NCBI GenBank assembly: GCA_021846225.1
Contig: JAJZCG010000026.1
Coordinates: 1 to 33,749, forward strand
From: Pseudomonadota bacterium
GTDB lineage: Bacteria > Pseudomonadota > Alphaproteobacteria > Acetobacterales > Acetobacteraceae
DNA length: 33,749 nt
Direction: 5' to 3'
Below are positions 7,063-29,680 of the stretch, piece by piece. The first letter of the stretch is position 1. Each line of letters opens with the position of its first letter. The notes beneath the pieces were generated by a model, which was not told the origin of the DNA, did not search any database, and saw only the letters and a program-made list of their open reading frames with translations. Position numbers and translations under genes: made by a program.

Positions 7063-7065
7063 GAT

Positions 7066-10877: not shown

Positions 10878-10883
10878 CACGCC

Positions 10884-12101: not shown

Positions 12102-12109
12102 CACTCACC

Positions 12110-12463: not shown

Positions 12464-12465
12464 GG

Positions 12466-13191: not shown

Positions 13192-13203
13192 GATGTCCTC
13201 CTG

Positions 13204-15934: not shown

Positions 15935-15935
15935 C

Positions 15936-16298: not shown

Positions 16299-17047
16299 GG
16301 CGACCTCATCGTTTGGTGTGGGGAACCTGCCTCAGCGGCCGCTGCAGCGCTTTGCCCGGCCACGTCCAGCCCCAGCGGCACCAGCCAGGGCGCGCCATGG
16401 GTCCGCGCGTAACTACCGGTGGCCGAGACATCCCAAGCGGGCGGCATGTCAGGGGCGATGGCGAGCGGCAGCGATGCGACGGAAAGAGGCGATGCCGCCT
16501 CATCGGCTTGTCGCATCACTCTTCGTGCGTAGCCGTTCATGATCCCTTTGAGCGGTGAGCCGGTATTGTAGATCGACAACGCCATGAGCAGGGCGGTCTG
16601 CTGCCCGCTACCCACCGGGCCAGCGCCATAAGCCGCGCGCAGCACTGCCGCACCGCCCGCCAATGACGCGCAGGGATCGAATGCTTGATCGATCGTCATC
16701 CCCAGCGCGGGCAGATTGGCGGCGTTGATTTGCATCAGGCCGAGATCGACGGAATGCCCCTCCGCGATCCATGCGGTCGCCTGAGCCTCGGCGTTGGCCA
16801 GACTCGCCGGGCTGGCACTGGCATGGATGCTGTTATCGTGCAGCATCCACGGATTAAAATTGCTCTCTGTATAGGCAACACCGCGCAAAACCCATGCCGG
16901 CACCCCTGGCGCGCAACGCGCCGCGAGACCGGCAAAATCCGCATTCGATAGGCTCGCAGCAAAGACTGGCGGTGGGCTGATCGTGCTCAAGCCGAGCAGC
17001 ACACCGGCGAGCCGATAACCGCGCAACCTTTCCCGCCGCACGCCCAT
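16295..17047 (-). CDS. virB1: VirB1 lytic transglycosylase
   Basis: VirB1 opens peptidoglycan locally for channel assembly. The 250-aa protein has a signal peptide (about residues 1-30) and an SLT domain. The catalytic glutamate is E61 in VAYTESNFNP. The GLMQINAANLPALG motif follows near 120, then DPCASLAGGAAVL and the YNTGSPLKG motif. The C-terminal tail is long and low-complexity, as often in VirB1. Its ATG directly follows the stop of the luxI gene with no gap, so VirB1 translation is probably coupled to that of the signal synthase. Confidence 0.93.
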   Translation of the reverse strand: MGVRRERLRGYRLAGVLLGLSTISPPPVFAASLSNADFAGLAARCAPGVPAWVLRGVAYTESNFNPWMLHDNSIHASASPASLANAEAQATAWIAEGHSVDLGLMQINAANLPALGMTIDQAFDPCASLAGGAAVLRAAYGAGPVGSGQQTALLMALSIYNTGSPLKGIMNGYARRVMRQADEAASPLSVASLPLAIAPDMPPAWDVSATGSYARTHGAPWLVPLGLDVAGQSAAAAAEAGSPHQTMRSP

Positions 17048-17662
17048 CTACGTCACCAGAATTTGCTGCCTGGTCATCCGGGCGGCCAGGCGCTGCCGCA
17101 TGGTTGACAGCGCCGCCGGCGTTGCCTCCCATATCCCAGCGCTTATGTTTCCAATCTCCGGCCGTGCCCGCGCCAAAACCTCCGGGCTCCAGCCGATCCG
17201 CGCGTAGATGCGCGTCATCGCTGTGTCGTAAACGCCAACAACAAATTCGATACCCGACGCGAGGCAAAGCTCACATAGGCCGATCAGCAATTCAGCGGAG
17301 ACAATGCCCACATCCTGTTCGGCCCTGCCCAGAACCGGCGGCACGCAAAACCGCGTGCATTCCCAGATCGTGGGGGCCGCTACGTCCACGTCATCATCGA
17401 AAAAATACCTGAACTCGCTTTGCAGCATCGTCGGCCCGGTTGTTGCCAACAACCGCAGGGAACCACGCACTTGCTGATGCTCATCGACCGCGAGGAGATA
17501 GACCGGATCAGCCTCTTCATCATAGCGATCGACCTCATGGCCGTCTTTAACCACCACATCCCAGCCCAGACGGTCATGAAAGACCGCCGCGCGGGACTGA
17601 TACATCTGGTCGAATAATGCGGGATGCTCGATCCTGTCATCCTGGCTCAAAGTTATGATCAT
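17048..17662 (-). CDS. luxI: LuxI-family acyl-homoserine-lactone synthase
   Basis: LuxI enzymes make AHL signals from S-adenosylmethionine and acyl-ACP (or acyl-CoA). All hallmark residues are at their usual places in this 204-aa protein: R24, F28 and W34 in SRAAVFHDRLGW, then E43, D45 and D48 in HEVDRYDEE, then R70 in GSLRLL, F84, and E101 with R104 in WECTRFCVPP. The ATG has GGAG 7 bases upstream. It is the first gene of the virB operon and touches virB1 with no spacer, recalling traI as the first gene of the trb operon on Ti plasmids. The acyl chain specificity cannot be read from the sequence. Confidence 0.95.
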   Translation of the reverse strand: MIITLSQDDRIEHPALFDQMYQSRAAVFHDRLGWDVVVKDGHEVDRYDEEADPVYLLAVDEHQQVRGSLRLLATTGPTMLQSEFRYFFDDDVDVAAPTIWECTRFCVPPVLGRAEQDVGIVSAELLIGLCELCLASGIEFVVGVYDTAMTRIYARIGWSPEVLARARPEIGNISAGIWEATPAALSTMRQRLAARMTRQQILVT

Positions 17663-17755
17663 TTGTGCTCCGCTTCAGTTCTTGAAACATCATGGCCAAC
17701 AAAATATCAGCACCGCCGAGAGGAGAGATTGAGCGTCTCCGGCGCGGCGGATTCA

Positions 17756-17800
17756 TGTTTACAAGCCGGATGATTCAGGCCGCAATCTTCCGAATCGGAA
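17756..17800 (-). promoter_or_regulatory. Putative regulated promoter of luxI-virB, operator copy 1
   Basis: Read on the minus strand, the dyad TTCCGATTCGGAA (17788-17800) is followed by GATTGC. A -35-like TTGCGG (17780-17785) and an 18-bp-spaced -10-like TAAACA (17756-17761) come next. This would start transcription near 17749, leaving a leader of about 87 nt before luxI. The dyad is centred about 45 bp upstream of that start, a normal place for an activator. The same motif recurs at 19093 and 28977. Confidence 0.5.
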
Positions 17801-17802
17801 TC

Positions 17803-17833
17803 TTGACAGATCGTCTCAATCGCGCACTGGATA
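17803..17833 (+). promoter_or_regulatory. Possible opposing promoter next to operator copy 1
   Basis: A consensus -35 TTGACA (17803-17808) lies 2 bp from the dyad on the plus strand, with TGGATA (17828-17833) 19 bp further on. It would drive a short transcript toward the hairpin at 17884-17908 and antisense to the end of luxR. The -10 and spacing are poor, so this is tentative. Confidence 0.3.
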
Positions 17834-17883
17834 GAAGTTTTGTCTGGATATATGCCGTGCCCCACACGCAGGATAACGCAAAC

Positions 17884-17908
17884 GCCCTGCCACATCAGGT
17901 GACAGGGC
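17884..17908 (-). terminator. Hairpin downstream of luxR
   Basis: GCCCTGCCAC and GTGACAGGGC form a 10-bp stem with one mismatch and a 5-nt loop, 61 bp past the luxR stop. The minus-strand sequence after the stem (GTTTGCGTTATCC) is only weakly T-rich. It may terminate luxR mRNA or act on a short plus-strand transcript. Confidence 0.45.
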
Positions 17909-17969
17909 ATTGCTTCAGCCTATCGAGGATTTATCGGTATTGGGCACGGATGCCCCGGTAATCTCCCGC

Positions 17970-18710
17970 TTACGGGCGCAGCATTTCGCGTGAGACCGTC
18001 TTGGCAATCGCCTGCGGGATCGTGGCACAATCCAACTTGGCGCAGCCGGATGTTAGAAACAGACGAACTGCTCGATCTGTAATGCCCAAGCTTGCCGCGA
18101 TCTGCTTCACGGTCGCACCGCGTGCCGCAAACTCCAGGCATGTCATCTCACGCGGCGATAACGCAGGCTTCGGTGTGGTATCCCGATAGCCCGAGAGCTC
18201 GACAATCCGATCATGCATATAATGCGCGATCATCTGGAACTCTTTCATATAACCAGTCCGGCGCTGTTCCCATTCTCTCATCGACATATTGGCGGTGACG
18301 GTAAACAACGCCCGCTCGCCCCCAGCCCCGCGCACCGGCAGCGTTATACCCTGCCTGCCAACATCAAACCGGTCGGCCTCCGCAAAAAAACCGCGCGCCA
18401 TAGCATTTTCCCGGTCGAGCTGCGCCCAATCCAACGGCAAAAAACTCTTCGTGCCACACACAACCACCGGATCGATTTTGAAGTAATCATTGTCCTTATA
18501 TCGCGCGACCCAGCCTGGATCATACGTCAAAACCAGGATCGGATTGAACGTCTTCGCACCAGGAATATAGACCGCGTGATAGGCCATGTTCGCCAGATGA
18601 TAGAATTTGCAAATATTGCCCGCGATCTTCTGCATGGCGGCAAGGCTGGCGGCCTCGCCAATCTGGGTGACGATCTCTTCGTAGCCATCATCCGATCCGG
18701 CAATCATCAC
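17970..18710 (-). CDS. luxR: LuxR-family AHL-responsive regulator
   Basis: The 246-aa protein has an N-terminal autoinducer-binding domain with the AHL-contacting residues W67, Y71, D80 (KIDP) and W94. These match the TraR/LuxR pattern of W57, Y61, D70 and W85. The C-terminal LuxR HTH begins LSPREMTCLEFAARG and continues with a helix pair reading VKQIAASLGITDRAVRLFL. The invariant Glu of SPRE is present, but the usual HL after the recognition helix is FL and the linker TSGCAKLDC is atypical. The ATG at 18708-18710 has GGGAGG six bases upstream. It lies upstream of luxI on the same strand, separated by 307 bp, and is presumably the receptor for that signal. Confidence 0.93.
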   Translation of the reverse strand: MMIAGSDDGYEEIVTQIGEAASLAAMQKIAGNICKFYHLANMAYHAVYIPGAKTFNPILVLTYDPGWVARYKDNDYFKIDPVVVCGTKSFLPLDWAQLDRENAMARGFFAEADRFDVGRQGITLPVRGAGGERALFTVTANMSMREWEQRRTGYMKEFQMIAHYMHDRIVELSGYRDTTPKPALSPREMTCLEFAARGATVKQIAASLGITDRAVRLFLTSGCAKLDCATIPQAIAKTVSREMLRP

Positions 18711-18988
18711 AAGCCTCCCGGTTACATGGAGACAACGCCAAATTGCACTACCGCGTTACGAATGGTTGCGTAAATTGAAATATCGGTAATGTTTGAAGAC
18801 AAGTAATGGCCAGTGTTTTACACGGGGATTGCATCACCATTGGCGGTCATCACCACGCGATTTCAGCAACAAACATCCCCGCGTGACGCTCATCATGCCA
18901 CCGCTCCCGCATGCGCTAGCATTCCTTGGTCTGTTGTAGAAACGTAACCCGATACCACACCAGACCGACGAGATTAGAGATAGCCTTT

Positions 18989-19084
18989 GCACCAGCCATT
19001 GAGCAGGCCAATAAGATAGCCATTGCAATAGCGGTTAAGCCAGCCAATGAGCAATTGATTGCACCAGCGATTCAGCAATCCACT
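18989..19084. repeat. Four tandem degenerate 24-bp repeats (iteron-like)
   Basis: Four units of exactly 24 bp lie head to tail at 18989-19012, 19013-19036, 19037-19060 and 19061-19084. They share a core like CCAGCCATTGAGCA: units 1 and 2 share AGCCATTG, units 1, 3 and 4 share CCAGC-A-T-AGCA. A weaker fifth unit may precede them. A period of about 2.3 helical turns is typical of iterons or partition sites. The array ends 8 bp before the palindrome at 19093. Confidence 0.6.
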
Positions 19085-19092
19085 GTCTCCTA

Positions 19093-19107
19093 CTTCCGAT
19101 TCGGAAG
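19093..19107 (+). promoter_or_regulatory. Operator copy 2 upstream of the TraK/L/M-like operon
   Basis: CTTCCGATTCGGAAG is a perfect 15-bp odd palindrome 57 bp before the start of the downstream gene. Its 3' flank GATTGC matches copy 1 read toward luxI. TTGCCC begins 9 bp from the dyad centre, as the -35-like element does at copy 1; a good -10 is not evident here. Confidence 0.5.
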
Positions 19108-19120
19108 ATTGCCCGCGGCG

Positions 19121-19154
19121 TCAAAAATAGTGAAACTCCCGCCGCTATTTTTGA
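19121..19154 (+). promoter_or_regulatory. Stem-loop in the leader of the TraK/L/M-like operon
   Basis: TCAAAAATAG (19121-19130) and CTATTTTTGA (19145-19154) are perfect inverted repeats around a 14-nt loop. They end 10 bp before the ATG and overlap the only weak ribosome-binding element (GAAAG). The stem could be a protein-binding dyad or could limit ribosome access. Confidence 0.4.
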
Positions 19155-19164
19155 AAGACAGTCC

Positions 19165-19677
19165 ATGTCGCTCAAGCGCAGACCAACCGATGCCGACATC
19201 GAAGCCCTGGCTGAAATCTTCCGCCCGCTCTGGCGGCAAGGCGATATTATGCGCCCGTGGCTGCGTCAGCATCATGAACTGCTCCGCTCGCTCGTGCATG
19301 GCGAATGGTCATGGGCCGCGGTCGGCGCGGCGCTGACCAAGGTTGGCATCACCTATCGAACCGGAACGCCCTGGACCGACAAGAGGCTACGCAGCGAGCT
19401 GTCACGTGCGTTGATGCCTCTCAAAGGTTATCGACAACGGCAGCCAAAGACCCAAACACAAGCAACGCCCCAAACTGCCATACCGCCCGATGCGGGTGCT
19501 CAAACGGACCTGCCGCCAAATCCCCCGCCGCCAGCGGTTGCCGCAGCACCCCGCTTCAAGCCCACCTCATTCCGCATCCCGGAATTATCACCCGCGCCAA
19601 GCGAATCCGCCCCGGCGGAAATCACCGGCAACCATCGCCTGACATTCGGCCCACTTGAACCTAAGGAGCCAAGCTGA
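19165..19677 (+). CDS. Predicted DNA-binding protein, first gene of a TraK/L/M-like operon
   Basis: A 170-aa protein. Residues about 1-90 are compact and helical. A segment GAALTKVGITYRTGTPWT followed by LRSELSRAL resembles the helix-turn-helix of serine recombinases and related DNA binders (small residue, LN-like turn, G-x-PW-T). The rest, about 80 residues, is Pro/Thr/Ala-rich and probably disordered. The order DNA binder, ParA-like ATPase and TraM-like protein recalls traK-traL-traM of IncP plasmids, where TraK binds oriT. Similarity to TraK is positional, not something I can show by sequence. The stop overlaps the next start (TGATG). A repeat array and two dyads lie just upstream as likely binding sites. 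Confidence 0.7.
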   Translation: MSLKRRPTDADIEALAEIFRPLWRQGDIMRPWLRQHHELLRSLVHGEWSWAAVGAALTKVGITYRTGTPWTDKRLRSELSRALMPLKGYRQRQPKTQTQATPQTAIPPDAGAQTDLPPNPPPPAVAAAPRFKPTSFRIPELSPAPSESAPAEITGNHRLTFGPLEPKEPS

Positions 19678-20558
19678 TGCCCGAAGACAAACCGCAAACG
19701 CCCACCACTCCCACCAAGCCATCCGGCGCCACGCCCTATCGCCCCAGCGCCATAAAATTCACCGGCCCGCGCACCGACATCGTCAGCCTGGCGCCGCCCA
19801 AGGAGCCCGAGCCCGACATCGAGCAGGGTATCGACCTTACCAGCCAGGCCAAAATCATCTTCGCCGCCGGACGCGGCAAAACCGGCAAGACCACCCTTCT
19901 GCGCTGGCTGACCGAAACCTCCATCCGTAATGGCGGCGCGCCGATCCTGGCCGATGTCGACCCCAGCAACGCCACCTTCTCCGCCTATTTCGCCGATGTC
20001 GCCCGGCCGGACACCGACAACCCCGCCGGGGTCGCCACCTGGCTGCAGGGCCTGATCGAGTATTGCATCACCGAACGGCAATCCGCGCTCATCGACCTGG
20101 GTGGCGGCGATACCACCCTGCGCTCCCTTGCCGCAGAAATGCCGGGCCTGGCGACCCATATTGAGGCCGCCGGCATGGCGCCGGTGATGTTCCATCTCAC
20201 CGGCCCCCAGCCCGAAGATCTCCTCCCTGCCCTCACTTTAGCCGCCCGTGGCTTCACGCCAACAGCACAGGCCCTAGTTCTCAACGAATATGGCATTGAA
20301 CCCGGCTCAACACGTGAGCGAGCCTTTGGGCGCCTCACAGCCTCCATCGCCTATGGCAATCTGGCCGCCGACTGCGTGAAATTGTGGATGGCGCGGCTCC
20401 ACGCCGCCGAGGCCGTGGAAAGCCGGCAATGCAGTTTTGCCGCCGCGCGCGATGGCACCATCAATCCGCCGCTCGGCCTGTTCGACGCCGCCCGCGTGCG
20501 CGTCTGGCTGGACGCCATGGACCGCCGCTTCGCCGGGGTCAGATCATGGATCCCATAA
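19677..20558 (+). CDS. ParA-like ATPase (TraL-like)
   Basis: The 293-aa protein has a disordered N-terminus of about 55 residues. A deviant Walker A motif, GRGKTGKTT, lies at about 65-73 with the signature lysine of the ParA/MinD family. A DVDPSNATFSAYF segment near 95 closely resembles the DTDPVNATFEGY of RP4 TraL, and a Walker B-like strand reads SALIDLGGGD near 142. Such ATPases position plasmids, proteins or transfer complexes. AAGGAG lies 9 bases before the ATG. Its end overlaps the next gene by 13 bp. There is no ParB gene beside it, which favours a transfer role over partition; both remain possible. Confidence 0.8.
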   Translation: MPEDKPQTPTTPTKPSGATPYRPSAIKFTGPRTDIVSLAPPKEPEPDIEQGIDLTSQAKIIFAAGRGKTGKTTLLRWLTETSIRNGGAPILADVDPSNATFSAYFADVARPDTDNPAGVATWLQGLIEYCITERQSALIDLGGGDTTLRSLAAEMPGLATHIEAAGMAPVMFHLTGPQPEDLLPALTLAARGFTPTAQALVLNEYGIEPGSTRERAFGRLTASIAYGNLAADCVKLWMARLHAAEAVESRQCSFAAARDGTINPPLGLFDAARVRVWLDAMDRRFAGVRSWIP

Positions 20559-21208
20559 GCCCCGCCGCGCGCCGTGAGGCCCTGCACGAGCAGATCACCG
20601 AAGCCCAGATGGTCCTGCGCCGCGCCGCCGCTGCCGCCGCCCTGAAAAGCGATCCGCTGGCCGAGCAGTTGCAGGCCCTGGCCGTCTGCGTCGGTGCGCT
20701 GAGTGACCTTTACCAGGCCAGCGAGGCCACACAGATCAACATCGCCAACACGCTGAAAACCCAAACCGGCGCCATCGCGAATGAAGCCATCGAACGGGTG
20801 CATGCCTCGGGCATGGACATCGTCAAACAGCTTGCTCCGCAACTGGCCAATGCCGCCGACCGCACCATGCGCATGAAAATCACCACCCTGCGTATCCGCA
20901 GCATCGTGGCCCTGGGTCTGGCATTGGCCCTGGCCATTCTGGTCCCCAGCCTGTTCACCTACGCAGCAGGGCTGAATGACGGCCGGTTTCAGGCCGAAAT
21001 CGCCGCACACATCATCCCCGCCGCCATGAAAGCCAGCCCGGCCGAGGCTATCGCCTGGGGGCAGTTGATGCAGGATAATGACGGCGCCACCGCCATGGCC
21101 GCCTGCCGCAAATCCATGCAGCAAGACGCCGATGGGCGGCATTACTGCTTCATGCCTGTCTGGACCGACCCGATATCCCCCGCCGTGCCTGCAGCACCCG
21201 TCCAATAA
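20546..21208 (+). CDS. Membrane protein in the TraM position
   Basis: A 220-aa protein beginning MDPISPAARREALHEQIT; I chose the ATG at 20546, which overlaps the TraL-like stop, because upstream residues only shadow that gene. The N-terminal 110 residues are strongly helical and Ala/Leu/Gln-rich, suggesting a coiled coil. One membrane segment spans about 117-141 (VALGLALALAILVPSLFTY) and a soluble domain with Cys residues follows. I do not recognise a named family. Coiled coil plus position suggests a TraM-like transfer protein working with the ATPase at the membrane. Confidence 0.7.
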   Translation: MDPISPAARREALHEQITEAQMVLRRAAAAAALKSDPLAEQLQALAVCVGALSDLYQASEATQINIANTLKTQTGAIANEAIERVHASGMDIVKQLAPQLANAADRTMRMKITTLRIRSIVALGLALALAILVPSLFTYAAGLNDGRFQAEIAAHIIPAAMKASPAEAIAWGQLMQDNDGATAMAACRKSMQQDADGRHYCFMPVWTDPISPAVPAAPVQ

Positions 21209-21294
21209 CCTCCAGCTCCACCTGCCAGCAGCACCTAATGAGCCGCCGCCCGGAACATTACCCTTGCCCAACCCCGCACACAGCCCTAAATATG

Positions 21295-21305
21295 ACTACT
21301 GTAGT
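21295..21305. promoter_or_regulatory. Dyad upstream of the Phd-like antitoxin
   Basis: ACTACTGTAGT is an 11-bp odd palindrome 24 bp before the antitoxin ATG, inside an A/T-rich stretch. Phd/YefM antitoxins autoregulate through such short dyads, so it is a candidate operator. Confidence 0.4.
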
Positions 21306-21329
21306 TCACCCTACCACCCGGAGGCCGCC

Positions 21330-21572
21330 ATGCGGGAAATCCAACTTCGCGACGCCAAGGCAAGCCTATCTGCCGTGGTTGACGATGCCGTGCGCGGCGA
21401 ACCCGCCATCATCACCCGCCACGGCAAGCCCGAGGCAGTTGTATTGAGCTTCGCGGAATGGCAGCGGCTCTCGCATGTGCCCTCTTTCGGCCAATTGCTG
21501 ATGGCAGCACCTCTCAATGAGGGCGATCTGCCTCCGCGCAATCCCTCCCCGCCCCGTGATAGCGGCCTCTGA
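21330..21572 (+). CDS. Phd/YefM-family antitoxin
   Basis: The 80-aa protein starts MREIQLRDAKASLSAVVDDA and continues with GEPAIITRHGKPEAVVLSFAEW, the typical Phd/YefM DNA-binding domain. A short C-terminal toxin-binding tail ends PPRDSGL. GGAGG lies 5 bases before the ATG, which fixes the start inside a longer frame. The stop is 3 bp before the toxin start, so the pair is cotranscribed. It should neutralise the PIN toxin and repress the promoter. Confidence 0.88.
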   Translation: MREIQLRDAKASLSAVVDDAVRGEPAIITRHGKPEAVVLSFAEWQRLSHVPSFGQLLMAAPLNEGDLPPRNPSPPRDSGL

Positions 21573-21575
21573 TCC

Positions 21576-22007
21576 TTGTATCTGGTCGACACCAACGTCA
21601 TCTCGGCGCGCGCACCCTCGCGCCTTCCCCTGCCCGAGCTGGCCGCCTGGATGGACGCCCACTCGGCTGAATTATTCCTCTCCACCGTCACCATCACCGA
21701 GATTGAGGACGGCATCGCCAAGGCCAAGCGTGAGGGGGCAACCCGCAAAGCCCGTGACCTAACCGCCTGGCTGGAAACCGTGCTGCACCTCTACGCAGCC
21801 CGCGTCCTGCCCTTCGACCTTGCCACCGCTCGCATCGCCGGCGCTCTTTCAGACCGCGCCCGAGGCCAGGGTTATGCGCCCGGCTTCGCCGACATCATCA
21901 TCGCCGCCACCGCCCAGCACCACGGGCTGATCATCCTGACCCGCAACCTGCGGCATTTTGAGCCACTGGGCGTGCCTGTGCATGATCCGTTTGCAAAGTT
22001 GGCATAA
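21576..22007 (+). CDS. PIN-domain ribonuclease toxin (VapC/FitB-like)
   Basis: PIN toxins cleave RNA, commonly tRNA or rRNA. The 143-aa protein opens LVDTNVIS (Asp5). The second acidic site is TITEIE (E42 and E44) and the third is GFADIIIAATA (D106), followed by LTRNLRHF. The usual start would encode Met-Tyr-Leu-Val-Asp, and here the first codon is TTG at 21576, as no ATG or GTG is suitably placed. All acidic residues are present, so the toxin looks active. Such pairs stabilise plasmids by killing or arresting plasmid-free cells. Confidence 0.88.
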   Translation: MYLVDTNVISARAPSRLPLPELAAWMDAHSAELFLSTVTITEIEDGIAKAKREGATRKARDLTAWLETVLHLYAARVLPFDLATARIAGALSDRARGQGYAPGFADIIIAATAQHHGLIILTRNLRHFEPLGVPVHDPFAKLA

Positions 22008-22239
22008 GCGTAGTTGTCGTCGGCAAGCAATTATCAGAAAACGCCATTCAGTCTCCGGCTGCTATTTCCAGCATTGTTGCGCCCATGTCCGACACAAAAA
22101 AGAGCCCGACCACGTTTCGGTAAGCGGATGCAATGTGAAGCCTCCGCTCACAAACCCTATGGCGAGCATATCATTCTTGGCCTATGGTTGGGAAATAAAC
22201 GTCGACGACACGTAGACTCACAATATCTGGAGGCCTCAT

Positions 22240-24000
22240 TTGTACGAATTTATAAGACGTCAAATTGATACGGATTACTTTCAGCAACGGTTTGTCAACG
22301 ATGGGCAAAGATTTATTGCCTGGTATTTACGGAACATCTTGTTCCGTGACATGAATGAGGCACGAGATGACATCACGGATGGCGCTGACGACAAGCAGAT
22401 CGACGCCATCGTAATTGATGATGACAAATCTTTAGTTCGCATCGTACAGGGAAAATTTGTCCAAGGCGCAACGATTGACGCTGAGCCATTGCGTGAAGTC
22501 CTTTCGTCTTGGATTCAAATCAAGGACCTTGCACGACTCCAGAATGTAGCGAACTCAAAATTACAACGTAAATTATCCGAATTAGCAGTTGCTCTCGATG
22601 AAGATTATGAAATTTCATTCGAGTTGATTACTACGGGGACCCTTACACAAGGCGCAAGTTATGATCTTGAAGCTTTTCAACAAGAACTCGCAAAGCTGAG
22701 TGAAGGTGAGGGCTTTAACGCAACTATTCACGTGATCAATGGTGATGAATTAAAGCAGCGCTACGACTATGCAATGGAATCCGACAATCCGAGCATCAGT
22801 TATAAACTGAATCTTGGAGGCAGTAAGTTTATGCATCACGAGATCGCAGGAACTCCCGTCGTGGTGGCGGCCCTTCCCCTTAAGGAATGCATTAATCTGC
22901 CAGGTATCAAGGATGGCACACTGTTTCAGAAAAACGTTCGTCAAAGTTTGGGGTCCAGCAACGCCGTTAATAAGGGCATCCGTAATACCATCATTGGCGA
23001 CAAACGTTCCGATTTTTTCTTTTTCCATAATGGCGTGACAGCACTTTGCAGCAAGATGGAATTAAATGGTGATGTTCTCTCCCTCCGGGGCCTGAGCGTT
23101 GTTAATGGTTGTCAATCACTGAATACAATTCTTTCGTGTAGCGAGACGGTAAAAAAAGCCGATGATGCTTTTATTCTTTTCCGGTTTTATGAAATTCCAC
23201 AACGAGATCGTGCAGACAAAATTTCGATTTCAACGAACTCTCAAAGCGTCGTTAAAGCACGTGATCTTCGGAGTAACGATAAGAGGGTTCTCGCAATTAA
23301 GAAGGCCTATGAACTAAAATTTCCTTCCGGGTATTTTATTTCAAAACGAGGAGAGATCGCACCTGCGTCCAAGGACGCTAGTCTTGTAGTTGATCTTTCC
23401 GAGTTTGCAAAAAATCTTATCGCTTGGCACTCACAGCGACCCAACTTATCATACGGCGAAACCAAAATATTCGACAAATATTTTGAAACATTATTCAAGA
23501 ACAAAGATTATCCGCCAGAGAACGTCGCAGCTTTACATCGTTGGATGGGCGAGGTTCTTCGTACATGGGTTTCAGCCAATCCACTGAATCTCAACGAGAC
23601 ACTTTTGGCGATGAAAGCCTACGCGCCTTTTCACCACCTATACGCGATTGCGATGTGTTTCTCGATTTCGAACGGTCAAGCTGAGAGGATTCCTAGCCCC
23701 GACAAGTCCTACGTGGCGGCGTCCAAAGCCGGCATGATTGATGAGATCGTCAAAGTCGCCGGAATAAGCCTCAACATGGCACTGGAAGCAGCCGCGAACG
23801 AAGTTCAGCCGCTTAACCGAGTCTTCAGTCCGCAGAACTGGATTAAATCAAAGGCATGCCTTGCGGGGATTAATGGCGCATTACGCAACTATTTCAGCAT
23901 GCTTCCTATGATACCGGGCGGCTCCGAGGTTAAAAAGAGGCTAAGCGAAGCCACTTCGATGAAGCCTGAAGATTTTGAATATCGATGGTCGGCGGATTAA
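22240..24000 (+). CDS. AIPR-family protein (abortive-infection/phage resistance type)
   Basis: The 586-aa protein carries the AIPR core: FFFFHNGVTALCSKM at about 257-271 and LSVVNGCQSLNTI near 285-297. These are the conserved NxG and NGCQ motifs of AIPR proteins, some of which are linked to abortive phage infection. The first 80 residues hold a pattern typical of Mrr-like PD-(D/E)xK nucleases: D51-KQID-D55, then VQGK with Q70 and K72. A nuclease activity is therefore likely but inferred. The start is TTG at 22240 with GGAGG six bases upstream. The gene is clearly A/T-richer than its neighbours, which suggests recent transfer. It stands alone, with no partner gene beside it. Confidence 0.82.
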   Translation: MYEFIRRQIDTDYFQQRFVNDGQRFIAWYLRNILFRDMNEARDDITDGADDKQIDAIVIDDDKSLVRIVQGKFVQGATIDAEPLREVLSSWIQIKDLARLQNVANSKLQRKLSELAVALDEDYEISFELITTGTLTQGASYDLEAFQQELAKLSEGEGFNATIHVINGDELKQRYDYAMESDNPSISYKLNLGGSKFMHHEIAGTPVVVAALPLKECINLPGIKDGTLFQKNVRQSLGSSNAVNKGIRNTIIGDKRSDFFFFHNGVTALCSKMELNGDVLSLRGLSVVNGCQSLNTILSCSETVKKADDAFILFRFYEIPQRDRADKISISTNSQSVVKARDLRSNDKRVLAIKKAYELKFPSGYFISKRGEIAPASKDASLVVDLSEFAKNLIAWHSQRPNLSYGETKIFDKYFETLFKNKDYPPENVAALHRWMGEVLRTWVSANPLNLNETLLAMKAYAPFHHLYAIAMCFSISNGQAERIPSPDKSYVAASKAGMIDEIVKVAGISLNMALEAAANEVQPLNRVFSPQNWIKSKACLAGINGALRNYFSMLPMIPGGSEVKKRLSEATSMKPEDFEYRWSAD

Positions 24001-24317
24001 TTTGCCAATGTCGTTGTTCGACTGCAGTCGAAGACTATATAGCGGCGCAGTGAGCAAAAGAAGAAAAAGATTTTTTGGAATTACTGTGCTTTTTATGAGC
24101 AGTTACTAGGCATTGATATTTGCAGAGGACTGCCGCAGGAGTTGAACAAGTTAGGTCTGATCCTGCTAATCGAAAGTTTTTGGTGCAGCATTTTTCAAAA
24201 AGCTGCGAGATTTCTTTTGAATCTATACTCCTTCTGACATCGACATTTCCAAAATGCTCCCACCAATTTTCATAACAAATCCCGCCCGGCTTCGCTGGGC
24301 GGGATTCATCGCGGTTC
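24001..24317. other. Intergenic region between AIPR and DUF736 genes
   Basis: A/T-rich 317 bp without a convincing gene. It contains a perfect 16-bp palindrome TTCGACTGCAGTCGAA (24017-24032), just after the AIPR stop. A small hairpin with GCAGC/GCTGC arms and T5/A5 (24185-24206) follows, and then the hairpin at 24278-24306. The first palindrome could be the AIPR terminator, although no T-run follows it directly. Confidence 0.4.
24278..24306 (-). terminator. Hairpin downstream of DUF736 gene
   Basis: AATCCCGCCC and GGGCGGGATT form a perfect 10-bp stem with a 9-nt loop, 11 bp past the DUF736 stop. On the minus strand it is followed by TGTTATG. It is a likely terminator for that gene. Confidence 0.6.
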
Positions 24318-24641
24318 TTACTCCCCGTTTTGCTTGCGGCTGCGGGACCAGATAAGGGTGTAGCCCTCGCCGCTTTCGTCGTCGAAGAGGTTGGCGTAAA
24401 TCGGCGCGCTGAAGCTCGGGTCATCCAGTTTGACCGAGATATAATCGCGCCCTTCAGCGGAACGTTTGGACCATCCTGCACCGAGCTCGGCGCGTCCACA
24501 GAATATACGATGGCTGGGCGCGTTGTCGTTGCTACGGTTAGTTTCAGGCACGATGCGCACATTCTTTGTCTGCACGCTTAAAGTAACGATCTCGCCGTGG
24601 ATTTCATTGCCGACTTTCTTGAAGGTTCCGATGGTAGCCAT
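24318..24641 (-). CDS. DUF736 family plasmid protein
   Basis: The 107-aa protein begins MATIGTFKKVGNEIHGEIV and shows the DUF736 pattern: IVTLSVQTKNVRIVPE, then a central HRIFCGRAELGAGWSK, then SVKLDDPSFSAPIYANL. The function of DUF736 is unknown; it is very common on conjugative plasmids and integrative elements of alphaproteobacteria, usually near transfer or maintenance genes. AAAGGAG lies 7 bases before the ATG. Upstream is a long noncoding stretch with a large inverted repeat that may form its leader. Confidence 0.88.
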   Translation of the reverse strand: MATIGTFKKVGNEIHGEIVTLSVQTKNVRIVPETNRSNDNAPSHRIFCGRAELGAGWSKRSAEGRDYISVKLDDPSFSAPIYANLFDDESGEGYTLIWSRSRKQNGE

Positions 24642-24751
24642 GTCAAATCTCCTTTGCTGTTTCGAGCCCGCGACCACCGCAACCTCGATGGCGATCAAAT
24701 GACCGGGAGCACGATCGGCCTGCACCGTGTGCGGCCGTAGCGCAGCGGAGG

Positions 24752-24833
24752 ATGGCGGCGGCGGGCTTTTTTGCAGCGAAGCGGCCGAGAGGAGACAGCG
24801 CAGCTGTCGGGGAAAAAAGCCCGGCGCCGCCAT
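24752..24833. repeat. Inverted repeat element A (GC arms with T6/A6 tract)
   Basis: Arms of 21 bp (24752-24772 and 24813-24833) match at 20 of 21 positions. They begin ATGGCGGCG and end CGGGCTTTTTT read inward, with a 40-bp spacer. A 14-bp motif GCCGTAGCGCAGCG precedes the left arm (24734-24747) and recurs before element B at 27415. The structure could be a bidirectional terminator-like hairpin or a protein-binding site. Confidence 0.65.
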
Positions 24834-25162
24834 TGCAGGAAGGCGATCGTCCTTCGGTCAGATCAGCCCCTGAGAGGCCGCGTGGCGCGGCGACAAACGA
24901 GCCCTGGAGATAAACGGCGATCCCGGACCTTCGAGAAATCGGCGAAGAAAAGCGGGGTAGCCAACAACGCATTTCGTAGACATGCATGCCCGCCCTGCCG
25001 GAATCTGCACCAGCCATGATGCCCCTGCCTTCATTCGCATTATGCGCCGAAACTAAACGCGGGTGAGTGTCACCATGCTCCAACGTGGGGAGAACAATCT
25101 CAACCAACCGGTCGGCACCGGTTCGTGCGCCGCCCCGCGCCAGACCACGCCGATGCCGCCGA

Positions 25163-25218
25163 CTGGTACACCCTTTTCTGCTCCCGGTCCGCCGAGCCAA
25201 ATAGGGTAAAAAAACCAG
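25163..25218. repeat. Inverted repeat element C (weak)
   Basis: CTGGT...ACCCT (25163-25174) pairs with AGGGT (25203-25207) and ACCAG (25214-25218), with a T/A tract inside one arm. The architecture resembles elements A and B but pairing is interrupted. It lies between element A and the merR stop. Confidence 0.3.
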
Positions 25219-25257
25219 CGACGCCCCCCCGCCTAGTGGCGGCGGGCAGCCCAATGT

Positions 25258-25659
25258 TCAAGCCGCCGAGAGCGTCTCTATCAGGGGGCAAGCCGTCTCG
25301 GCACCAGCATCGCAGCGCTGCACGGCCTCGGTCAATACGCCTTCCATGGCCCGCAGATCGGCGATGCGCGCACGCACATCCTGCAAATGCGTGGCGGCAA
25401 GGTCGCGCACTTCCCCGCACGCTTCCGCCCCGGCCCCTGCCAAACGCAGCAGCGCGCGCACCGCATCAAGCGTAAAACCAAGCTCGCGCGCACGCCGCAC
25501 GAAGACCAGACGCCCAATGTCAGCGATTTCGTAGAGACGATACCGGCCCCGACGGCGCGGCTTCGGCAAAATGCCGATCTTTTCATAAAACCGGATCGTC
25601 TCGATCGCGCAGCCAGTGCGGCGCGAGAAGTCTCCAATCGGCATATCATCGCGATTCAT
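25258..25659 (-). CDS. merR: MerR, mercury-responsive regulator
   Basis: MerR activates mer genes when Hg(II) binds. The 133-aa protein has the MerR HTH (IGDFSRRTGCAIETIRFYEK), an RGRYRLYEIADIGRLVF wing and the dimerisation helix. The three Hg(II)-binding cysteines are conserved in place: C81 in EACGE, C116 in QRC, and C124 in CPLIETL. I start at the ATG 25657-25659; a second ATG at 25644 (128 aa) also keeps the domain, and a longer upstream frame crosses the promoter and is unlikely. It is divergent from merT and shares the regulatory region with it. Confidence 0.9.
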   Translation of the reverse strand: MNRDDMPIGDFSRRTGCAIETIRFYEKIGILPKPRRRGRYRLYEIADIGRLVFVRRARELGFTLDAVRALLRLAGAGAEACGEVRDLAATHLQDVRARIADLRAMEGVLTEAVQRCDAGAETACPLIETLSAA

Positions 25660-25679
25660 AAGCGCCCTCAATTCAAGGC

Positions 25680-25710
25680 TTGAGTCTGTAGTGACTACAG
25701 ATGTTACGAG
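25680..25710 (+). promoter_or_regulatory. MerR-type mer promoter/operator
   Basis: TTGAGT (25680-25685) is followed by the perfect 15-bp palindrome CTGTAGTGACTACAG (25686-25700) and a weak -10 (TTACGA or TACGAG, about 25704-25710). The spacer of 18-19 bp with a centred dyad is the hallmark of MerR-controlled promoters, where MerR distorts the long spacer. It drives merT rightward and lies between merT and merR. Confidence 0.75.
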
Positions 25711-25741
25711 GCGATGATGCCCACCGCAAGGAGATCGTGAC

Positions 25742-26119
25742 ATGCAGCCAAACCCACCCGAACAAAACCCAACCAGTCGCGCCGTCCGCGATACTGGCGC
25801 GACACTCCTGACCTTAAGCGGTCTGAGTGCCGCATTCGGCGTGGCCTCCTGCTGCGGCCTACCATTCCTGCTGGCAACGGCGGGTCTCAGCACGGCCTGG
25901 CTAACGGGCATCGCGCTACTCGCAGCCCCGCACCGGCCGCTGCTGCTGGCTCTGGCGGCATTGTGCCTTGCGGCGGGTGCTGGGTTGCTGTGGCGGGGCC
26001 AACCGGCCAGTGCCTGCGCATCTGATGCAGTCTGCGCTAAGCCCATGGTCCGTGGCATGACGATCATTGGCCTCGTGGCCGGGCTGGTGCTGCTGGTGAT
26101 CGGTTATCTCTATGCGTGA
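25742..26119 (+). CDS. merT: MerT-like mercuric ion transporter
   Basis: MerT carries Hg(II) across the inner membrane for cytoplasmic handling. The 125-aa protein has three hydrophobic segments. The vicinal pair C37-C38 lies in the first (GVASCCGLPFLL), and a second Cys pair is in the loop between segments 2 and 3 (PASACASDAVCAKP). Both pairs are characteristic of MerT. AAGGAG lies upstream of the ATG. The operon is odd because no merP or merA follows, so imported mercury would not be reduced by this locus alone. Confidence 0.85.
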   Translation: MQPNPPEQNPTSRAVRDTGATLLTLSGLSAAFGVASCCGLPFLLATAGLSTAWLTGIALLAAPHRPLLLALAALCLAAGAGLLWRGQPASACASDAVCAKPMVRGMTIIGLVAGLVLLVIGYLYA

Positions 26120-26126
26120 GGCACTT

Positions 26127-26348
26127 ATGATCCTGGAATCAACCATCACCTGCCCGCATTGTGGTTTTCAGGCGACCGAGACAATGCCGACCGATGCCTG
26201 CCAGTATTTTTACAAGTGCAAGGGATGCGGCACCCTGTTACGGCCTAAGCCCAGGCATTGCTGCGTGTTCTGCTCCTTCGGCAGCATCCCCTGCCCGCCA
26301 ATCCAGATCGATGGCGGGCAGGGCGGCGGATGCTGCCCCGCGGGATGA
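26127..26348 (+). CDS. Small Cys-rich mer-associated protein (GDCCVFCSYG-type)
   Basis: A 73-aa protein with a zinc-ribbon-like pair CPHC...CKGC and a second cluster HCCVFCSFGSIPCPPIQ. The latter matches the GDCCVFCSYGxVxCPPxQ proteins often found beside merT-like genes; their function is not established, but metal binding is likely. I prefer the ATG at 26127, 6 bases after GAGG; an ATG at 26112 overlapping merT would add 5 residues. It is cotranscribed with merT. Confidence 0.75.
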   Translation: MILESTITCPHCGFQATETMPTDACQYFYKCKGCGTLLRPKPRHCCVFCSFGSIPCPPIQIDGGQGGGCCPAG

Positions 26349-26387
26349 GGTGCCGCCGTTCAATGCGGCGCATCGGATTTGTGAGGG

Positions 26388-27326
26388 CTATGTGCCCCCA
26401 CCGCCGAATGTCCACACCGGAATACCGAGTTTCTTGGCCTTGTCGGCCAAGTTCTCCTGGATGCCGGTGCCCGGAAATACCATGACGCCGATTGGCAAGG
26501 CATCCAGCAGCGCGTCATTGCGCTTGAACGGTGCCGCCTTGGCATGCCGTGCCCAGTCGGGCTTGTAGGCAATCTGCGTCACCTTGCGGGCATCGGCCCA
26601 GGCGGCGGCGATACGCTCGGCGCCCTTCGGACTACCGCCATGCAGCAACACCATGTCCGGGTGCTTGGCATGCACCTTATCCAGCTTGTCCCAGATCAGC
26701 CTGTGGTCATTGCACTCCATCCCGCCGGTGAAGGCGATTTTCGGGCCGGAGGGCAGAAGAGGGGCAATCTGTGCCTGGCGCTTGGCAGCGATGAAGTCGC
26801 GGCTGTCGATGAGGGAAGCGGTCAGCGCCCGGTGATTGACCATCGAACCGGAGCGTGGGCGCCAGGCGGTGCGTGTGTGACGCTCAAACTGCTCAGCGGC
26901 CTGATCACGGAAGAATTCCAGGCAGTCGCGCCGTTCCAGCAATGTCTGCCCCTCCGCCGTCAGCCGTTCGAGTTCAACCGAGCGGATCTCGGAGCCATCT
27001 TGCTCCTTCTGACTGCGCTTTTGGGCCTGCTCGTTATCGTCCAGCGCCCGCTCAATCCGGCCTACGGCGCGATGGAATAGATTGACCGTCGCCCAGAGCA
27101 ATTCCTCGAGATCAGGCTCCAGTCGCGTGTCGATCAGGGTCGCAGCAAAGGCATCGAAGATATCTGCGACGGCCCCTGCGATCAGCGGTGCTTCGGGCAA
27201 TGGCCGCGGGTCAGGCTCGTCCTGGCCGGGATGGTAACCATAGAGCTGGAGTTCGTTGAGTATATGCGCGGTGGGGGAAGCGGCGTGCGTTGGCTCATAG
27301 CCGGTATCGTCGTGTTCGCGGGTCAT
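26388..27326 (-). CDS. DUF2493 (SLOG-like) plasmid protein
   Basis: The 312-aa protein has a helical N-terminal part (about 1-190, with ERLTAEGQTLLERRDCLEFF) and a C-terminal DUF2493 domain. That domain shows KIAFTGGMECNDHRLIWDKL, MVLLHGGSPKGAERIAAAWA and VMVFPGTGIQENLADKA. DUF2493 belongs to the SLOG superfamily, whose Gly-rich loops bind nucleotides; the cellular role is unknown. GGAG lies 8 bases before the ATG. It follows the Toprim gene on the same strand after a 365-bp gap that holds inverted repeat B. Confidence 0.85.
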   Translation of the reverse strand: MTREHDDTGYEPTHAASPTAHILNELQLYGYHPGQDEPDPRPLPEAPLIAGAVADIFDAFAATLIDTRLEPDLEELLWATVNLFHRAVGRIERALDDNEQAQKRSQKEQDGSEIRSVELERLTAEGQTLLERRDCLEFFRDQAAEQFERHTRTAWRPRSGSMVNHRALTASLIDSRDFIAAKRQAQIAPLLPSGPKIAFTGGMECNDHRLIWDKLDKVHAKHPDMVLLHGGSPKGAERIAAAWADARKVTQIAYKPDWARHAKAAPFKRNDALLDALPIGVMVFPGTGIQENLADKAKKLGIPVWTFGGGGT

Positions 27327-27691
27327 GGAATGCTCCTGTTTGCCGGAAGCCCGCGCCTATCGCGGCCTTCCATGGCGATCCCAGCCGTGGGCGGCGGCAG
27401 CCCGCACGCATCGCGCCGTAGCGCAGCGAAGAATGGCGTCGGGGCCGCTATTTTGCTTCGCGATGCAAAGCCCCAGCGTTGCCCAGCATGATTAAAATAT
27501 CCGACCATTCCTCGGGGCGGCGGAAAATAGTGGTCCCGCCGCCATTGCGGGCCGCCGCCGCCCACGGCACAGAGCGCCCTCTCGGAAGGCCGCCGGCGCG
27601 GCCGCCTGAAAGACAGGGGCATGAAGTGCACGGCGGCGGCGATAATCCCGGCGTTGGCGGGCCATCATCCAGTCATCCGCCACGCTAAATC
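27327..27691. other. Noncoding gap between Toprim and DUF2493 genes
   Basis: No gene is supported in these 365 bp. They hold inverted repeat element B and the 14-bp motif GCCGTAGCGCAGCG (27415-27428) shared with element A. If the Toprim and DUF2493 genes form one transcript, the hairpin would sit within the mRNA. Confidence 0.5.
27433..27545. repeat. Inverted repeat element B (related to element A)
   Basis: Arms of 22 bp (27433-27454 and 27524-27545) match at 19 of 22 positions. They begin ATGGCG and end CTATTTT read inward, with a 69-bp spacer. Two of the three differences would be G-U pairs in plus-strand RNA. The outer ends ATGGCG/GCCGCCAT and the preceding 14-bp motif match element A, while the inner A/T tract differs, so both arms diverged together. 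Confidence 0.6.
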
Positions 27692-28876
27692 TCAGCCGGA
27701 CGTCATGAAGCGCACGGCATCCTCCGGCGCCAGTTGCACCCGCAGATGTGCCCGCAATTCAGCGAGGCCAAGCACGCGGAGGTCGTCGTTGAAATCGCCA
27801 AGGCGGGGCGAGAGCGTGATCGCCTCGACCCCAGCGGCAATTGCGCGTCCGGTCAAACTTGCCACGGCGCGGTCACCGGCCGCATCGGCGTCACGGGCGA
27901 TATAAAGCCGCCGCAGTCCAGCGGGGAGCAGGAGAGCTGCCAGATGCCCGGCCGAAAGTGCGGCCGCCATCGGCATGGCGGGCAGCACGCAGCGCAGCGA
28001 CAGCATGGTCTCGATCCCCTCGCCCGCCACGAGCAGGCCGTCTACCGGTTCGTCTTCCAGTCTCGCCGTTGTGCCCAACCGCACGGCATGGCCCAGCAGC
28101 AGCCCCAGCGCCCGGCGTGGAGCTGCCAGTGGTGCCTTACCCAGTCGTATGGGATCAAGCGGTTCGTGCCCGTCAACATCAAGCCATGTGCGCTGGATAC
28201 CGGTGATGGTACCCTCGAGGTCCGTGACCGCCGCAAGCAATGCGGGCCAGGGTTCTGGCTGTGCATCCAGGATCGCACGGTAGTAACAGCGCGGATGAAA
28301 CCGCAATGCGCCGATTCCGGTAAGCGCCGCTGGCGTGATGCCGCGCCGATGCAGATAGGTCTCGCCAAGGGTGCCCGAAATTGGCTGCGCCATACTGATC
28401 AGCCGCCGTGCAGCACTTTGGGCTTTGACGGCATCAGGGGCTAAATCACAACCTTCATCCGCCTGGGGCTCGGGGACGGCACAAGCACCCGGTAAACTGG
28501 GCCAATGGCCCAGAGGGTGGCGGCGGCGTTCGCAGGCCGCAGCATGGTCACCTCCTGCTAGCCCCAAAAACCGCCGTGCCTCCTCGGCCACATCCCGGAA
28601 CTCGGTAAGGCCACAGCGCTCGCGGATCAAATCCAGCAAATCGCCATGCGTGCCCTCTGCGGCATCCTGCCAACGCCCCACGGCTCCCTTGCCCGTGCCG
28701 CCGCCACTGAGCCGCACAAACAAGGACCGCCCCGGCGTGTTATGAACATCTCCCACCAGCCAATAACGCCCCTCACGCCGCCCGGCGGGCAGATAATGCC
28801 GACACACCGCCTCTGCCTGCCGGGCCAGCATTTGCGCCAGCTCCGCCACCGTCATGGAAAAATCATGCTTGGGCAT
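27692..28876 (-). CDS. Toprim-domain primase-like protein
   Basis: The 394-aa protein has an N-terminal zinc-finger-less primase-like region (GRYWLVGDVHNTPGRSLFVR, then GHGDLLDLI-like THGDLLDLI). A central part reads LGETYLHRRGITP. The Toprim domain follows, with the catalytic Glu in VAGEGIETMLSL near 283 and the DxD in YIARDADAAGD near 325. Such proteins are plasmid primases or primase-helicase fragments that may prime complementary-strand synthesis after transfer. I chose the ATG at 28874-28876 with GGAGG 7-8 bases upstream. The third copy of the shared palindrome lies about 100 bp upstream. Confidence 0.85.
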   Translation of the reverse strand: MPKHDFSMTVAELAQMLARQAEAVCRHYLPAGRREGRYWLVGDVHNTPGRSLFVRLSGGGTGKGAVGRWQDAAEGTHGDLLDLIRERCGLTEFRDVAEEARRFLGLAGGDHAAACERRRHPLGHWPSLPGACAVPEPQADEGCDLAPDAVKAQSAARRLISMAQPISGTLGETYLHRRGITPAALTGIGALRFHPRCYYRAILDAQPEPWPALLAAVTDLEGTITGIQRTWLDVDGHEPLDPIRLGKAPLAAPRRALGLLLGHAVRLGTTARLEDEPVDGLLVAGEGIETMLSLRCVLPAMPMAAALSAGHLAALLLPAGLRRLYIARDADAAGDRAVASLTGRAIAAGVEAITLSPRLGDFNDDLRVLGLAELRAHLRVQLAPEDAVRFMTSG

Positions 28877-28926
28877 TGTTGCCCCTCCATCACCAAAGAG
28901 TTTCCGCCAACCAGGGCGCCAGCCCA

Positions 28927-29172
28927 TCAAGCTGCCGAACAGCGCAGCCTATCGTTCCGCCCTGCCCAGGCGCTATCTTCCGAATCGGAAGTGCGCGGGC
29001 GCCGTTTCACCAGCACAGGCGAAAAGTGGCCCGTGGCATCAATTCCCAGCGGGGTTGCGCACATTCCTTCCTTCGGCACTCGCAGAACACCGCCCCACGC
29101 AAAATGGGCCGCCCCGCTGCCGGGTCCGGCCCATCCGCATTGTTCGTGACGCTTCGTGGATTGCCCGGGCAT
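28927..29172 (-). CDS. Possible small protein (uncertain)
   Basis: An 81-aa frame starting MPGQSTKRHEQCGWAG lies 4 bp after the preceding gene's stop and has GGAGG 11 bases upstream. Codon third positions are only moderately GC-rich and no family is recognised. Its 3' part overlaps the palindrome at 28977-28991, which it would translate as TSDSEDS. Another frame of the same stretch is equally open, so the region may be noncoding. Confidence 0.28.
   Translation of the reverse strand: MPGQSTKRHEQCGWAGPGSGAAHFAWGGVLRVPKEGMCATPLGIDATGHFSPVLVKRRPRTSDSEDSAWAGRNDRLRCSAA
28946..28991 (-). promoter_or_regulatory. Putative regulated promoter of the Toprim gene, operator copy 3
   Basis: The perfect dyad CTTCCGATTCGGAAG (28977-28991) is followed on the minus strand by ATAGC. 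In the same register as copy 1 come TAGCGC (28970-28975) and, after 18 bp, TAGGCT (28946-28951). A start near 28939 would give a leader of about 63 nt before the Toprim ATG. The dyad lies about 45 bp upstream of that start, as at luxI. Confidence 0.45.
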
Positions 29173-29176
29173 CGGG

Positions 29177-29680
29177 CTACCCACCCTCCTGCCCGGCGAT
29201 GTCGGCAAGACAGTCCGACAAAAACTCCGTGGTCGAGCAGCCTTTGATGGCATCAGCAGTGATGATCAACGCCATGCCGCCAAAACCATCGGCGCGCATT
29301 TTCGAACAGGTGAAGGCCGTCGTCACGGTGATATAACGCAATTTGGCTGAGCGCCGCACGATGTCTTGGAGAATAAACTCCCATGAAATACCGCTCATAT
29401 CAAGTTCAATATCATCCTGATCCGCCGGTGATTTTTTGAGCTTCTCTTCAATATAATCTCGCACCTGGCTGCTGCGCTTATCGGCCGCATTCAGTGCGGC
29501 CCTGAGAGCGGAGCCATTGACCCAGATGAGATCAGACGGCCCCTCCCAGGAGTAGAAATAGGTTCCGTCTCCATCCGAGTCCGCATCGAACATATGCGAA
29601 AGCAACAAAAGCTCCAGTTTCGTCATATCCGAGTTCGGGATGATCTCCGGTATCACGGTCGGTGAAAAATAATCCGCCAT
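29177..29680 (-). CDS. Conserved-looking plasmid protein, function unknown
   Basis: A 167-aa protein starting MADYFSPTVIPEIIPNSDM. It is acidic, has mixed helix and strand content, and includes FDADSDGDGTYFYSWEGPSD and a C-terminal EFILQDIVRRSAKLRYITV block. I do not recognise a named family. The DADSDGDG run looks like a possible metal-binding loop, but that is a guess. GGAGG lies 6 bases before the ATG. It is preceded by a hairpin that also precedes the DUF6878-like gene, so these genes form a set with matching leaders. Confidence 0.75.
   Translation of the reverse strand: MADYFSPTVIPEIIPNSDMTKLELLLLSHMFDADSDGDGTYFYSWEGPSDLIWVNGSALRAALNAADKRSSQVRDYIEEKLKKSPADQDDIELDMSGISWEFILQDIVRRSAKLRYITVTTAFTCSKMRADGFGGMALIITADAIKGCSTTEFLSDCLADIAGQEGG

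Follow-up and report, generated by a model that had tools for sequence, protein, structure and literature searches.

Which protein reads the palindrome that recurs in front of three transfer-related gene units in the draft acetobacterial genome G000 (GCA_021846225.1), and what does it do there? The window, by which we mean the whole stretch of 33,749 nucleotides analysed here (contig C114, JAJZCG010000026.1), carries luxI- and luxR-type genes next to a set of virB-like genes. Comparison of its sequence with related loci makes it very probable that the LuxR protein encoded on the plasmid uses this palindrome as its operator. The site would be a lux box of the RaiR type, its spacer shorter by 1 bp, and through it LuxR would activate luxI and the transfer operons.

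One palindrome before three transfer-related units

A pattern scan of the window confirmed the three copies listed by a first-pass annotation. The 15-bp form CTTCCGATTCGGAAG occurs before the traK-like operon (operator 2, plus strand, 19093–19107, centre 19100) and before the Toprim primase gene (operator 3, minus strand, 28977–28991, centre 28984). The third copy, on the minus strand at 17787–17801, reads ATTCCGATTCGGAAG with one mismatch and keeps the 13-bp core TTCCGATTCGGAA at 17788–17800; it is the middle of a 23-bp dyad, CAAGATTCCGATTCGGAAGATTG, lying before luxI-virB (operator 1, minus strand, 17783–17805, centre 17794). The dyad is thus of odd length, 13 bp for the core and 23 bp counting the arms. 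Counted on both strands, the three sites give six matches in the window at up to three mismatches, a number reached by 0/100 shuffled sequences (mean 1.21), which upholds the earlier statement that three copies in 34 kb are not due to chance. The core occurs three times in G000, each time inside the window, and allowing one mismatch adds no further place in the 2,688,031 bases (123 contigs) of this genome. Read toward the downstream gene the sites are TGTCAAGATTCCGATTCGGAAGATTGCGG (luxI), TCTCCTACTTCCGATTCGGAAGATTGCCC (traK-like) and CCGCGCACTTCCGATTCGGAAGATAGCGC (primase). A GAT(A/T)GC flank faces the gene at all three, as had been noted, but this feature is variable at the traK-like and primase sites of relatives: nine of 17 traK-like sites read GTTGA at the flank position, and certain primase sites GTAGC or GTGGC. 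The outer CAA arms are missing from primase sites, and one arm is missing from many traK-like sites.

The same placement recurs in other genomes of the acid-loving genus Acidocella, to which G000 probably belongs. In 38 Acidocella genomes (~106.6 Mb, with a naive expectation of ~3.2 exact cores) we found 44 exact cores, in 16 genomes, compared to four for a reversed-pattern control. Their surroundings were placed by tblastn with the window genes and the promoters then aligned. The first-pass annotation had named sites scattered, inside genes or absent from relatives as grounds for refuting its proposal; instead, 44/44 exact cores fall in the same three promoters, namely luxI-virB (12), the traK-like operon (17) and the Toprim primase (15). 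Genes cut by contig ends (the primase of G001 and G025 and the traK-like gene of G002) were recognised by their first codons, and one luxI site of G023 was assigned solely from its position behind luxR. Five extra promoters carry variants, these being the luxI promoter of G023 and the primase promoters of G012, G017 and G029 (one mismatch each) and the luxI promoter of G001 (changed centre), giving 49 promoters with a box. The central base is T on the coding strand in 48/49, the exception being a traK-like gene on a 327-kb contig of G017. As an observation apart, G012 (contigs C15, C88, C109, C162 and C168) holds five primase genes, each with a box, and seven ParB matches, which suggests either a mixture of strains or a host with many related plasmids side by side.

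Counted by gene, the 14 luxI promoters that could be read comprise 12 with the exact core, one with a single mismatch and one, in G001, with the changed centre. The 30 traK-like matches, minus one without an alignment and one with only 19 upstream bases, leave 28 informative homologues; the exact core lies upstream in 16, and the other 12 have no core at up to two mismatches. Two of the unboxed loci (G011:C176 and G009:C46) have their best core, with three and four mismatches, at the usual distance from the traK-like gene, perhaps as decayed sites or by chance. Primase homologues of at least 71% identity with upstream sequence present carry the core at up to one mismatch in 16/16 cases (13 exact, three with one mismatch), five further ones that were cut before the promoter being left out; four homologues at 53–56% identity have no core upstream. 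Likewise, virB clusters without luxI/luxR in the fetched stretch have the core, at up to two mismatches, in 0/6 cases, two of them with ~450–500 bp of upstream sequence. The 23-bp form at up to one mismatch was found in 6/395 sampled genomes of the order, all of Acidocella, and its exact form in none of the viral contigs. Because of these negative traK-like, primase and virB loci, the box is a property of a particular plasmid family, not of type IV secretion system (T4SS) or primase genes generally. A megablast search of PLSDB with window positions 17000–29300 gave no match.

The earlier claim of −35/−10-like pairs stands in part. At the luxI promoter a −10-like TGTAAA (17758–17763, minus strand) lies 31 bp past the dyad centre, and among 13 scorable luxI promoters nine have TGTAAA and three TCTAAA at this same offset (12/13). 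For the other two promoters possible −10 elements are suggested by eye only, from the aligned promoters: a weak TAGTGA before the traK-like operon (19128–19133, plus strand) and TAGGCT before the primase (28946–28951, minus strand), the latter with GATAGGCTGCGCTGTT, mostly conserved. Judged by eye, the −35 hexamers adjoining the box look poor (TTGCGG in the case of luxI). We infer that the luxI dyad is centred near −43; judging from the sequence, the dyad covers part of the region where a −35 element is expected. For tra boxes at class II promoters a location ~45 nt upstream, overlapping the −35 element, is described (PMC3907764); the similar position of the luxI dyad favours LuxR as the binder. 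A TTGAC-like −35 is frequent in unboxed traK-like promoters. This would agree with the boxed promoters depending on an activator; the −10 of the unboxed ones could not be placed, however, and we do not rely on it.

LuxR as the candidate binder

The nearest plasmid relatives in PLSDB include Rhizobium rai-type pairs, whose RaiR-type LuxR is 42–43% and whose RaiI-type LuxI is ~53% identical to the proteins of the window. Five of six Rhizobium raiI-type promoters contain GTCAAYCT-N12-AGATTG, starting ~75 bp before the gene. The same halves, exact and separated by N11, form the luxI site of G001 and one traK-like site of G023, while the left half reads GTCAAGAT at most Acidocella luxI sites; the fetched loci, 1,044,617 bases in all with some redundancy, contain no other match to the two halves with spacers of 10–13. 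The earlier statement that the palindrome does not match the classic lux or tra box accordingly has to be revised, in that it resembles a RaiR-type box with a spacer of 11 instead of 12 bp; its sequence nevertheless differs both from a tra box and from the RaiR-type box of even length. These outer halves, common to five of the six promoters, favour LuxR as the binder, since LuxI and LuxR are what the Acidocella and raiI-type loci are known to share. The two rai loci with wide flanks differ in adjoining alanine-metabolism genes, not transfer genes. A 26-bp box, GTCAAYCTGRTGAAATATCCAGATTG, is common to the Rhizobium raiI-type promoters of L161 (3125–3150), L162 (3133–3158), L201 (1424–1449), L202 (1378–1403) and L203 (1424–1449).

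Other loci were less informative. L159 (Rhizobium phaseoli, LuxR 48%) has GTCAAT-N15-ATTGTC before luxI, which is AT-rich and was given little weight, and L160 (LuxR 44%) has no convincing dyad there. Six LuxR/LuxI loci from another genus of the family lack such a dyad before luxI, with weak or AT-rich ones in two. The nearest LuxR proteins elsewhere are uninformative for the box: in the order (395 genomes sampled) they reach 30–33% identity, and in the class (385 sampled) a single one reaches 36%. A possible resemblance to the RpaR box of R. palustris was considered and dropped. PraR was also considered as the binder of the raiI dyad and set aside, its reported consensus TTGCAA (PMC4149787) not being seen by eye in the Rhizobium dyad; TTGCAA occurs by chance in one Acidocella flank (G017 luxI).

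A further line of evidence comes from G001, where a related virB cluster is preceded by a LuxR and a LuxI that are 51% and 46% identical to those of the window. The luxI promoter there has the 23-bp dyad CAATCTTC-N7-GAAGATTG, in which the 8-bp arms and the length are unchanged and the centre differs (TGTTTTA in place of the usual CGATTCG). At up to two mismatches the arms have a single match in the 15.7-kb locus, where 200 shuffles gave a mean of 0.02 and a largest count of 2. The recognition helix reads DDAVRMYLRS in G001 and DRAVRL[FY]L[TS]S in 11 LuxR proteins of 71–100% identity, and two of the changes probably face DNA. An altered box centre beside a diverged LuxR again favours LuxR as the binder. 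Across genomes, those with a LuxR of at least 70% identity have the core in 9/9 cases, compared to 7/29 of those without (p = 7e-5).

Several observations weigh against LuxR. No real LuxR match exists in five of the 16 genomes with sites (G061, G011, G025, G035 and G029), where the best hits are short C-terminal ones with E of 5e-4 or weaker (none in G025 at E up to 1); yet these five hold 8/44 exact cores, and two of them, G061 and G011, are estimated to be 99% complete. G012, in which only an 18-residue luxR start is seen at a contig end (E 0.039), keeps five exact cores. The primase site of G001 retains the standard core though the sole LuxR found in that genome is the diverged one, and its traK-like gene has no site. 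Two more perfect dyads with 8-bp arms, of equal length and with unrelated arms, lie in virB9 of the 15.7-kb G001 locus (L087), so that perfect dyads of that length alone are not rare. The odd dyad and its incomplete CAA arms set the Acidocella sites apart from the Rhizobium box; the five raiI-type promoters that have this box are closely related to each other; and neither the sixth raiI-type locus (L200) nor the Rhizobium luxI loci L159 and L160 have it. As to the boxed genomes without LuxR, three readings would each fit: luxR may have been lost while the boxes stayed intact, a co-resident plasmid may exert the control, or a different regulator may be at work.

The last of these, a chromosomal or plasmid-borne regulator that uses the palindrome with LuxR merely as its neighbour, would account for the eight cores just mentioned, and other DNA-binding candidates are encoded nearby, for instance the MerR-family protein at 25258–26067. 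We nevertheless think it very improbable: none of the 38 genomes has an exact core outside the three promoters, which would be uncommon if the regulator were chromosomal; promoters of RaiI-type synthases carry the outer halves again; and the virB clusters without luxI/luxR lack the site. A more specific candidate is the ParB/KorB-like plasmid protein (30732–33050), whose open reading frame (ORF) has a weak match to the ParB N-terminal domain and which might bind the palindrome and keep the transfer genes repressed in the manner of KorB on RK2. The core is built like the KorB operators of RK2, palindromes of 13 bp around one central base that recur in plasmid promoters, although the sequence differs; parB lies near the primase on these plasmids; and genomes with a ParB of at least 70% identity have the core in 11/14 cases compared to 5/24 of those without (p = 8e-4). 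Both proteins being linked to the sites, co-occurrence by itself cannot separate LuxR from ParB and was discarded as a discriminator. However, the site-bearing G036 lacks ParB and that of G002 is only 37% identical (estimated 96% and 93% complete), while G016, G018 and G027 have a ParB of at least 70% identity and no core; among the 16 genomes with sites a ParB at this level is missing from five, but the genomes are drafts, and LuxR is likewise unseen in five. In G001, moreover, ParB is 88% identical, yet the centre of the luxI box has changed in step with LuxR, and ParB leaves the similarity to raiI-type promoters unexplained. Binding by ParB is on these grounds very improbable.

Another possibility concerns the sign of the control, since LuxR could bind the boxes and repress without N-acyl-homoserine lactone (AHL), the signal relieving repression as with EsaR. 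Lying over the −35 region, a dyad might just as well keep RNA polymerase out. The poor −35 hexamers, however, are as expected of activator-dependent promoters, and a regulated operon that starts with luxI is in keeping with positive feedback like that of traI-trb on the Ti plasmid (PMC3907764). We give repression by LuxR hardly any credence, so that the preferred reading is of LuxR as an activator. The proposal of a plasmid regulon under the plasmid's own LuxR draws support from the exclusive placement of the sites, the raiI-type halves and the changed centre in G001, with AHL response and binding as its predicted properties.

The genes behind the operators and the predicted course of induction

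The proposed binder is encoded at 17970–18710 on the minus strand (Pfam Autoind_bind 1.6e-27, GerE 4.5e-10) and the AHL synthase LuxI at 17048–17662 on the same strand (Autoind_synth 1.7e-35), all of these domains scoring above the Pfam cut-offs. A predicted LuxR model (mean predicted local distance difference test score 74) matches structures of TraR, QscR and LasR. Residues W67, Y71, D80, P81, W95, G121, E188, L192 and G198 are invariant in the 11 LuxR sequences aligned; counting by eye, they correspond to W57, Y61, D70, P71, W85, G113, E178, L182 and G188 of TraR, the conserved residues for binding of ligand and DNA.

As judged from gene order, luxI would be the first gene of an operon that continues, on the same strand and nearly without gaps, through virB1–virB11-like genes and the coupling protein TraG/VirD4 (5218–17047, minus strand) to a MobF-type relaxase-helicase at its far end (782–4573, minus strand; NF041492 132.8 bits, cut-off 100; TrwC PF08751). 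Domains were detected for VirB1 (SLT), VirB2, VirB4, VirB6, VirB8, VirB10, VirB11 and TraG; virB3, 5, 7 and 9 are named from position only. Behind operator 2 lie three plus-strand ORFs (19165–21208) that the first-pass annotation had called traK-, traL- and traM-like, names that the family models searched do not support, with no match for the first and third and a sub-threshold P-loop match for the second. The traK-like protein, whose first-half residues are confidently predicted to be helical, was considered as a rival DNA-binding regulator and dropped, there being no PDB match at E up to 0.001. The unit behind operator 3 (26388–28876, minus strand) consists of a Toprim/DUF7146 primase and a SLOG-family ORF (PF13362, PF23639, PF10686), the primase start being taken as the ATG at 28876 from where homologues begin.

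Other features of the window were seen in passing. Between luxR and the traK-like gene, at 18914–18979, lies a strongly conserved block beginning CGCTAGCATTCCTTGGTCTGT, present in 13/13 aligned regions (window included) and followed by short repeats to ~19090; from its sequence and its place beside the traK-like gene, this is a plausible candidate origin of transfer (oriT) for the MobF relaxase. Between the transfer operons, at 22240–24000, an AIPR-domain protein matches the PADLOC AbiU model (E 1.6e-34) and is possibly an abortive-infection defence. The MerR-family ORF named above overlaps a divergent ORF for a MerT-like mercuric transport protein, the pair spanning 25258–26119, and homologues adjoin the SLOG gene in G009 and on one G012 contig, not in G035. 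Two toxin–antitoxin-like pairs stand on either side of the transfer region, a TacA-like antitoxin ORF with a small ORF without Pfam match (111–736) and a Phd/YefM–PIN pair (21078–22007).

From this arrangement we would predict the following course. AHL made by the plasmid LuxI would accumulate, and LuxR–AHL dimers would occupy each of the three boxes, over part of the −35 region, and from there recruit RNA polymerase to the three operons. Operator 1 would drive luxI-virB-traG-relaxase, providing mating pore, coupling protein and DNA processing and at the same time raising the signal through luxI in a positive feedback. Operator 2 would drive the traK-L-M-like operon beside the probable oriT, and operator 3 the primase, such that transfer may be turned on as one unit at high density.

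Relation to known systems and meaning

The regulatory logic looks like that already known from TraR and the tra boxes of Agrobacterium, and the odd-length box looks new. As on the Ti plasmid (PMC3907764), the mating-pore operon begins with a luxI-type gene and several transfer operons are preceded by a common box; the box may also take a class II position, as suggested by the −10 of luxI at its fixed offset from the dyad. The differences are several: the Ti tra box, as far as that source describes it, is an 18-bp inverted repeat whose six central bases are without TraR contact, whereas the Acidocella dyad is odd, has another sequence and is most conserved in its core; the Ti transfer pore is Trb and here it is VirB; and the window LuxR scores 59.8 bits on the TraR equivalog model NF010444 (cut-off 250), so it is not a TraR orthologue. 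In Dinoroseobacter shibae AHL signals raise the expression of a plasmid virB-type T4SS, as stated in PMC4886583, but the master luxI1/luxR1 genes are chromosomal there, whereas here luxI and luxR lie within the plasmid T4SS locus with its repeated box. In the open-licence literature, surveyed mostly by titles and abstracts, we found no description of a quorum-sensing regulon for conjugation in Acidocella.

More tentatively, the box may be a genus-wide common switch, with DNA lacking luxR answering the LuxR and signal of co-resident or neighbour plasmids, and the odd box a distinct class of LuxR-family operator; we regard this wider proposal as possible but rather unlikely. If it is true, luxR-less DNA with mobilisation-type or primase genes (G061, G011 and G035) would move when its helper moves, and the centre of the odd box, with its oriented central base, would be read or shaped by the protein, unlike in TraR.

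For Acidocella the analysis predicts a complete conjugation regulon under quorum sensing, with a directly testable operator. It also yields a candidate RaiR binding box for Rhizobium. Regulation of raiI by RaiR, responding to the AHL that RaiI makes, has been reported (PMC5977203), and RaiIR-regulated genes were described in 2014 as not identified (PMC4149787); the box could serve to seek RaiR targets. A lux box that differs by one bp of spacing between diverged regulators may, in addition, be useful for learning how LuxR proteins read spacing.

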